Positions 41,240-41,838 of a DNA stretch of 64,000 bases are shown piece by piece. Every line of letters starts with the position of its first letter. Position 1 is the stretch's first letter. Source of the DNA: Haloarcula pelagica (GTDB taxonomy: Archaea; Halobacteriota; Halobacteria; Halobacteriales; Haloarculaceae); assembly GCF_030127105.1 (NCBI RefSeq), contig NZ_CP126161.1, positions 2,232,001 through 2,296,000 of the forward strand, in the 5' to 3' direction. Below the pieces are notes generated by a model. That model was not told the DNA's origin. It worked only from the letters and a program-made list of their open reading frames with translations, and ran no database searches. Both the position numbers and the translations under genes were made by a program.

Positions 41240-41245
41240 CTTATA
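41240..41245 (+). promoter_or_regulatory. TATA box for the leader peptide/ACT/hom transcript
   Basis: ttatag at 41240-41245 lies 25-30 bases before the ATG at 41270 and about 60-65 before the ACT gene start. In haloarchaea this spacing predicts transcription starting at or next to 41270, so the mRNA would begin with the 12-codon leader frame. Confidence 0.6.
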
Positions 41246-41269
41246 GTTACCCCCTCTGAGTCACCCACA

Positions 41270-41308
41270 ATGAGCGGCGATATTCCACAGGAGGTGAGCG
41301 GGCGATGA
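41270..41308 (+). CDS. Twelve-codon leader peptide upstream of ACT protein gene
   Basis: The frame MSGDIPQEVSGR starts exactly where a leaderless transcript would start. Its stop TGA overlaps the ATG of the ACT gene (ATGA at 41305-41308). The frame also contains a ribosome-binding sequence ggaggtg at 41290-41296, about 8 bases before the downstream ATG. This layout suggests translational coupling or attenuation-type control rather than a functional peptide. The peptide has no run of Thr or Met codons, so classical amino-acid attenuation is not obvious. Too short to prove by sequence alone. Confidence 0.45.
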   Translation: MSGDIPQEVSGR

Positions 41309-41838
41309 GCGACTCGACCGACGAGGTTCGGTCCTACACAGTTCGGCTCGAACTGGTCGACGAACCGGGCGAACTGCTGCGGGCGCTCGAACCCATCGCC
41401 GACAACGGCGGGAACCTCCTCTCTATCTTCCACGAGCGGGGCAACGTCACGCCCCGCGGCCACATTCCCGTGGAGGTCGACATGGAGGCGACTCCCGAAC
41501 GGTTCGACGGGATCGTCGACGCGTTGCGCGACGCGGGGATCAACGTCATCCAGGCCGGCGCGGAGCGCTACAGCGAGACGCTGACGGTCGTCCTCACGGG
41601 CCATCTCATCAACACGGACCTCTCGGATACGCTCTCGCGCATCCAAGAGCGAACGGACGCGACGGTGACCGACCTCTCGCTGTCGGCTCCCGAAGGGACC
41701 GAAGACGCCTCCAGCGCCCGCATCCGGCTGGCGACCGAACAGAACGCCACCGAGTCGGTGATGGGGACGATCAGGGACCTCGCCGAGGAGAAGGAACTGC
41801 GTGTCATCGAACCGCTGGCTGCCGGAGGGGAACTATGA
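41305..41838 (+). CDS. ACT domain amino-acid-binding protein
   Basis: A 177-residue protein with an N-terminal ACT domain (SYTVRLELVDEPGELLRALEPIADNGGN) and a second ACT-like fold from about residue 92 (ETLTVVLTGHLINTDLSDTL). ACT domains bind amino acids and regulate enzymes. The four-base overlap with homoserine dehydrogenase suggests that it confers feedback control on threonine/methionine synthesis, since the dehydrogenase itself lacks a C-terminal ACT domain. That regulatory role is inference from context. Confidence 0.85.
   Translation: MSDSTDEVRSYTVRLELVDEPGELLRALEPIADNGGNLLSIFHERGNVTPRGHIPVEVDMEATPERFDGIVDALRDAGINVIQAGAERYSETLTVVLTGHLINTDLSDTLSRIQERTDATVTDLSLSAPEGTEDASSARIRLATEQNATESVMGTIRDLAEEKELRVIEPLAAGGEL

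Follow-up and report, generated by a model that had tools for sequence, protein, structure and literature searches.

Amino-acid attenuation through leader peptides is textbook bacterial regulation, and in enterobacteria a Thr/Ile-rich leader peptide, thrL, comes before homoserine dehydrogenase. Among the titles and abstract openings retrieved from the open literature, we found no amino-acid leader-peptide attenuation in archaea; haloarchaeal ribosome-profiling and small-protein papers may list the frames described below.

Work on Haloferax volcanii bears on our subject in other respects. All nine of nine overlapping gene pairs are reported to be strictly coupled in this archaeon (Huber 2019, PMC6728339), where Shine–Dalgarno (SD) motifs are described as serving reinitiation, not de novo initiation (PMC6728339; Kramer 2014 cited in PMC7531240). 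Upstream open reading frames are also on record, 16 cases of 97, of 15-31 aa and in UTRs of 150-250 nt (Babski 2016, PMC4983044); a search of that paper's main text turned up neither homoserine nor threonine. Mycobacteria are reported to have 'coupled' leaderless small ORFs in which the TGA shares an RTGA with the downstream start (Shell 2015, PMC4633059), and polycysteine leaderless ORFs are described as attenuators (Canestrari 2020, described in PMC9031893 and PMC9094748).

Here we describe a 12-codon frame in front of an ACT-domain gene and homoserine dehydrogenase (hom) in Haloarcula pelagica, along with its counterparts across the haloarchaea. On balance, the sequence points to this frame being a leader cistron from which ribosomes would reach ACT-hom by termination-reinitiation.

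Anatomy of the leader and its operon

The window, by which we mean the whole 64,000-nucleotide stretch of DNA analysed, contains the following features.

41241..41246, + strand: TATA element TTATAG of the ACT-hom promoter, read from the sequence, 29 nt 5' of the leader ATG
41270..41308, + strand: leader ORF MSGDIPQEVSGR, 12 codons and stop, predicted to be leaderless (ATG 41270-41272, TGA 41306-41308)
41290..41297, + strand: Shine–Dalgarno sequence ggaggtga within the leader, serving the ACT start, nearly fixed in sequence across the genus
41305..41308, + strand: ATGA, in which the leader stop overlaps the ACT start (ACT ATG 41305-41307)
41305..41838, + strand: ACT-domain protein (Pfam ACT), 177 aa
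41835..42785, + strand: homoserine dehydrogenase, hom (PF00742, E 1.9e-50)

A first-pass annotation had picked out the TATA-to-ATG spacing, the 12-codon frame, the SD in its body and the overlap of its stop with the ACT start, and all of these coordinates check base by base; 7 nt lie between the last base of ggaggtga and the ACT ATG. The ATGA at 41305-41308 is an RTGA of the kind by which Shell 2015 recognized coupled ORFs, and the haloarchaeal hallmark of termination-reinitiation, an overlap with an SD before the downstream start, is found at ACT too. A second ATGA overlap, at 41835-41838, joins ACT to hom.

The ACT protein aligns with the Pfam ACT model at E 8.8e-06 and 25.8 bits, slightly below the 27-bit cut-off. 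In NCBIfam it matches only threonine ammonia-lyases, in their C-terminal part and far below cut-off; these matches are in keeping with a threonine or isoleucine ligand and no proof of one. The leader itself encodes one Ile and no Thr. Its RNA in the window has no special or stable fold (z 0.37), and the covariance models of Rfam 15 gave no matches at E<=0.1 across 8 loci.

Downstream of ACT, hom is present in 253 of 268 loci (13 are without hom and 2 are too short), a count in which some genomes are repeated and which joins 235 scripted cases to 18 added by hand (gap 0, direct ATGA overlap). Short-leader ACT copies with no hom behind them, their leader ORF retained, occur in Halobellus, Halocatena and one Haloferax. 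Loci lacking hom carry the handles L053-L056, L059, L062, L081, L083, L128 and L204; at those viewed in Halobellus and Haloferax, the neighbour is a convergent gene that, on our own reading, resembles 3-dehydroquinate dehydratase.

The arrangement across the class

ACT loci were fetched from the genus, from 65 named haloarchaeal loci and from 115 loci in 115 genomes spread over the class, and it is these last, plus the window, that make up the 116 loci counted here. Eight listed matches lie outside the 116, seven of which came in later (L316-L322) for the survey of groups f2 and f4 only and one of which was left unfetched; one further search covered 80 of the 92 genomes first listed. At 32 loci (15 + 17) the ACT start was set by eye before counting. 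Our strict rule took an ATG 26-32 nt past a TATA-like hexamer and no more than 230 nt from ACT, opening a frame with its end between -12 and +24 of the ACT start.

By that rule the leaderless upstream frame predicted in the first-pass annotation, with its stop over the next start, recurs at 86 of the 116 loci and in 67 of 82 genera. Local shuffles, run 200 times, let a mean of 1.09 loci of the 116 pass and at most 5. The 30 loci that fail the rule include several that have a frame behind a weaker TATA and others that are truly free of a leaderless ORF. In 464 kb of the window's own genome, two of 355 genes have a TATA-positioned overlapping frame (the ACT leader and L220:4374), and the same TATA rule finds such leaders in 0 of 30 genomes each at trpE, ilvB and thrC. 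The arrangement therefore belongs with ACT, and its anatomy is not chance.

Seen in one genome, the same anatomy would permit something plainer, namely an ACT gene with a 35-nt 5'-UTR and an SD, the ATG at the start site being incidental and the leader never translated. An ATG at start-site distance combined with an overlapping stop in 67 of 82 genera, where shuffling would yield 1.09 of 116 loci, argues against this, as do the single-codon steps in leader length within the genus. We regard the plain 5'-UTR as extremely improbable.

The position of the leader ATG is regular. It stands 27-31 nt from the TATA at most positive loci, and TTATA-to-ATG distances over the 464 kb of the window's own genome peak at 27-30 nt, with 15 cases in that range and 7 at 29 itself, the background being mostly 0-2 per distance and its highest value outside the peak 4, at 37. 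The 29 nt of the window is thus the expected position for a leaderless start. As a side observation from the same sample, the second case there, L220:4374-4462, is a 31-aa frame before a small protein starting VPECDYCGTSFNDEDDYLSHLENVH.

At its other end, the leader overlaps the ACT start, by ATGA or ATGAnTGA, in 81 of the 86 positive loci, and 4 more abut. TATA-positioned ATGs up to 130 nt upstream of ACT tell the same story: 77 of 82 lead into a reading frame other than that of ACT whose stop falls over the ACT start, and just one extends ACT in frame. These stops bear on a different reading, in which the leader represses. The SD lies within the leader, so ribosomes that start at the 5' AUG must cover it as they cross, and they might compete with direct 30S initiation and lower ACT output; the rare Thr codons of the long leaders would slow them further. 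Against this, a stop on the ACT start is the geometry of coupling, not of by-passing, and direct SD initiation at 5'-UTRs is reported to be inactive in H. volcanii (Kramer 2014 cited in PMC7531240). A repressing leader strikes us as very improbable.

What stays constant over the class is the promoter distance, the ATG, an open frame that is not in phase with ACT, and a stop codon lying on the ACT start. Length ranges from 6 to 70 codons, and the peptide differs between families. The arrangement is widespread among haloarchaea and is probably ancestral. Two genera (L179/L292 and L180/L308) have no leader, and ACT itself starts about 29-30 nt past the TATA. Evidently the leader is unnecessary merely for ACT to be expressed.

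Codon content of short and long leaders

Thirty-one of 32 genomes in the window's genus have the ACT locus, and at all 31 loci viewed the leader is 11 or 12 codons long, so that lengths differ by exactly one codon. Codons 3-6 vary, and the SD and the junction hardly change. Conservation among close relatives, on which the first-pass annotation had laid weight, is borne out: overlap and length are kept across the genus, and the arrangement reaches far beyond it. Leaders of the wider family are also short, mostly 9-16 codons.

Of 19 distinct leaders in the genus, 14 have Thr 5' of the SD. It accounts for 22 of the 92 codons there, versus 2 of 73 and 4 of 73 for the two other frames; these sequences are closely related, and the pattern is suggestive only. 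The window's strain has Ile where most relatives carry Thr, its codon 5 being ATT, one base off the ACT codon of its nearest relative, L004. Across the window's family there is no genus-level excess of Thr (4 genera above, 6 below and 5 ties, n=15), and the short leaders outside Natrialbaceae, taken together, have 13 Thr in 116 codons versus 14.1 expected. In Natrialbaceae-type leaders (group f3), frame 0 is richer in Thr than the other two frames on average in 18 of 21 genera, with 2 below and 1 tie. At the Natrialbaceae-type loci L098-L127 the leaders have 14-18 codons and often read MTT(C/R)GRP; Cys in leaders of this type takes 14 of 163 inner codons versus 2.4 expected from base composition.

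The long leaders belong to groups f4 and f2, which we assign to Haloferacaceae and Halobacteriaceae from their named loci. They run mostly to 34-69 codons, examples being MQTGTTPPRRTATEPPSDRSTPGTGTC... (from the largest genus), MPSGTTHGRRDGCERATQPRTPITIIGSTTTPP..., MPSGTTTGSRRVGTETPRGPSPSPITIIASTGRAAGVTA and MHAGRRVTRGIGTERQRSRSQPTTIRAPSAPGWSP. In seven named Haloferax genomes ACT is present twice, once behind a short leader and once behind MRKGTSLDSWRDDAKPRPNRASRTTASGRPTGVGR or a near variant. The 134 f2/f4 loci divide into 114 with overlapping or abutting leaders, 14 without a TATA-positioned ATG and 6 with frames ending elsewhere, under a lenient classing that accepts a start codon up to 12 nt from the stop. 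Two long leaders, L142 and L315, have lost the frame of their relatives and run beyond the ACT start, through either sequencing error or real loss.

The long leaders have a strong coding bias. Thr takes 482 of 2708 inner codons in frame versus 171 and 213 in the other frames, and Ile 108 of 2708 versus 15 and 25, in a comparison of 81 leaders with distinct first 16 residues that are kin and hence not independent. Of the 21 f4 genera, 18 have more Thr in frame 0 than the other frames average, and 3 have less. The codons chosen are rare ones: ACA makes up 194 of 659 Thr codons in the leaders, and ATT 55 of 142 Ile codons; in the ACT genes that these leaders precede, the figures are 23 of 890 and 64 of 719. 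The long peptides as such are under no strong purifying selection, with, for example, 501 synonymous versus 888 non-synonymous one-base codon differences.

We looked for RNA structure in the long leaders as well. Immediately 5' of the ACA codons, a hairpin is paired in 75.2% of cells and has 56 double changes versus 29.5 in shuffles. The alignment behind these figures comprises 74 sequences, after removal of 8 outliers from 84 leaders and merging of identical stretches. Support for the hairpin is moderate because one slid control has as many double changes (57, with 45.6% paired). RNAalifold predicted no structure from the long-leader alignments, the hairpin region included, and we found no terminator hairpin. 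Models of SD sequestration, with a crude stall model and SDs chosen by a loose pattern, gave no consistent result.

Other biosynthetic genes served as controls. Thr richness by amino-acid counts alone was rejected as proof, ilvB leaders being equally rich by base composition. In these, Thr takes 86 of 393 codons in frame and 85 in another frame, so only the frame-specific comparison was kept. The idea of a general amino-acid attenuation system was also dropped, given the 0 of 30 TATA-positioned leaders at each of trpE, ilvB and thrC. Short ORFs that run into the ilvB start through an ATGA do occur, in 25 of 30 genomes versus 4.7 when shuffled (loci L353-L382, the window's own genome being L361), but not at TATA distance, and these short frames have almost no Ile, Val or Leu codons. 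Farther upstream of ilvB, many genomes have a motif like tattgtaggggc..tagcccc.

The first-pass annotation had envisaged a switch for threonine and methionine synthesis, and this part of it survives in a narrower form. Coding bias is strong for Thr, together with Ile, in Haloferacaceae and Halobacteriaceae, and for Thr in Natrialbaceae; the window's own family lacks it at genus level, and there is no methionine signal.

Codon content also bears on whether the leader does anything beyond delivering ribosomes. On the view that haloarchaea load ribosomes at 5'-terminal AUGs and use SDs mainly for reinitiation, a leader might constitutively bring ribosomes to an SD-assisted start, its peptide and codons being irrelevant. 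The lack of conserved sequence and length between families would fit, as would the window's family, which shows no Thr bias by genus, and the ilvB leaders, which keep the overlap without cognate codons. Such indifference sits badly with the frame-specific Thr/Ile and rare-codon bias of the long leaders, with the Thr that 14 of the 19 distinct leaders in the window's genus retain, and with the two genera in which ACT is leaderless and has no leader ORF. We think pure delivery somewhat unlikely.

A proposed mechanism and its known relatives

Promoter spacing and conservation suggest that the ACT-hom operon has the leader as its first cistron, with the 5' end of the mRNA at or beside the leader AUG, where ribosomes would load. 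They would then terminate within the start codon of ACT and begin anew there, helped by the SD within the leader; the overlap and the coupling published for H. volcanii lead us to this step, and termination-reinitiation is our best inference for the hand-over. ACT would in turn be coupled onward to hom through the second ATGA. Leader translation would thus gate the whole operon. That the frame acts as a coupling leader seems to us likely, and in the window's family coupling is the part that the sequences support best.

A fourth step, the sensing of threonine, is suggested by codon content and would apply to groups f2, f4 and f3 only. In the long leaders, rare Thr codons (ACA) and Ile codons (ATT) cluster ahead of the hand-over, so that leader transit should report charged threonyl-tRNA. 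In the short leader, a ribosome stalled at codon 5 would probably mask the SD and so lower output under starvation, the opposite of the derepression of a classical attenuator; in the long leaders the Thr cluster lies farther upstream and could leave the SD free. The case for a threonine response in the long-leader lineages is evenly poised, and in the window's own strain such a response is quite unlikely.

The broadest statement we would entertain is that haloarchaeal threonine synthesis is controlled by a class-wide and ancient leaderless leader peptide, the counterpart of bacterial thr attenuation, in which transit over rare Thr/Ile codons sets the ATGA hand-over and terminator hairpins play no part. 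The 12-codon form of the window would be a reduced descendant, with one Thr/Ile codon before the SD. This is possible, if somewhat short of an even chance. If true, it would provide a role for very short leaderless frames, and account for an SD-led gene at the first position in an operon where the SD reportedly serves mainly reinitiation. A leaderless leader coded for Thr and Ile stands before ACT-hom in the genetically tractable Haloferax too, which makes the question testable by standard reporters.

How, then, does the leader compare with what is known? The uORFs of H. volcanii are likewise short frames before a normal haloarchaeal gene, but are described in long 5'-UTRs (PMC4983044). The termination-reinitiation pairs reported from the same organism share the ATGA overlap and the SD inside the upstream frame (PMC6728339); there the upstream partner is a normal gene, whereas here a 12-codon leader takes that place, right at the 5' end. 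Coupled ORFs of mycobacteria, as described, are also short leaderless frames that share an RTGA, some with codons for their pathway's own amino acid. The frames described here differ in being archaeal, in having a TATA promoter, in featuring threonine and isoleucine rather than cysteine, and in standing class-wide before one gene pair.

The last comparison is with thrL. The haloarchaeal frames differ from it in their leaderless start, in a stop that overlaps the next gene and in that no terminator hairpin was found, and we claim no sequence kinship. What the long-leader lineages have in common with thrL is a leader rich in Thr and Ile ahead of homoserine dehydrogenase, and by this analogy their leaders resemble a thrL-like threonine attenuator.
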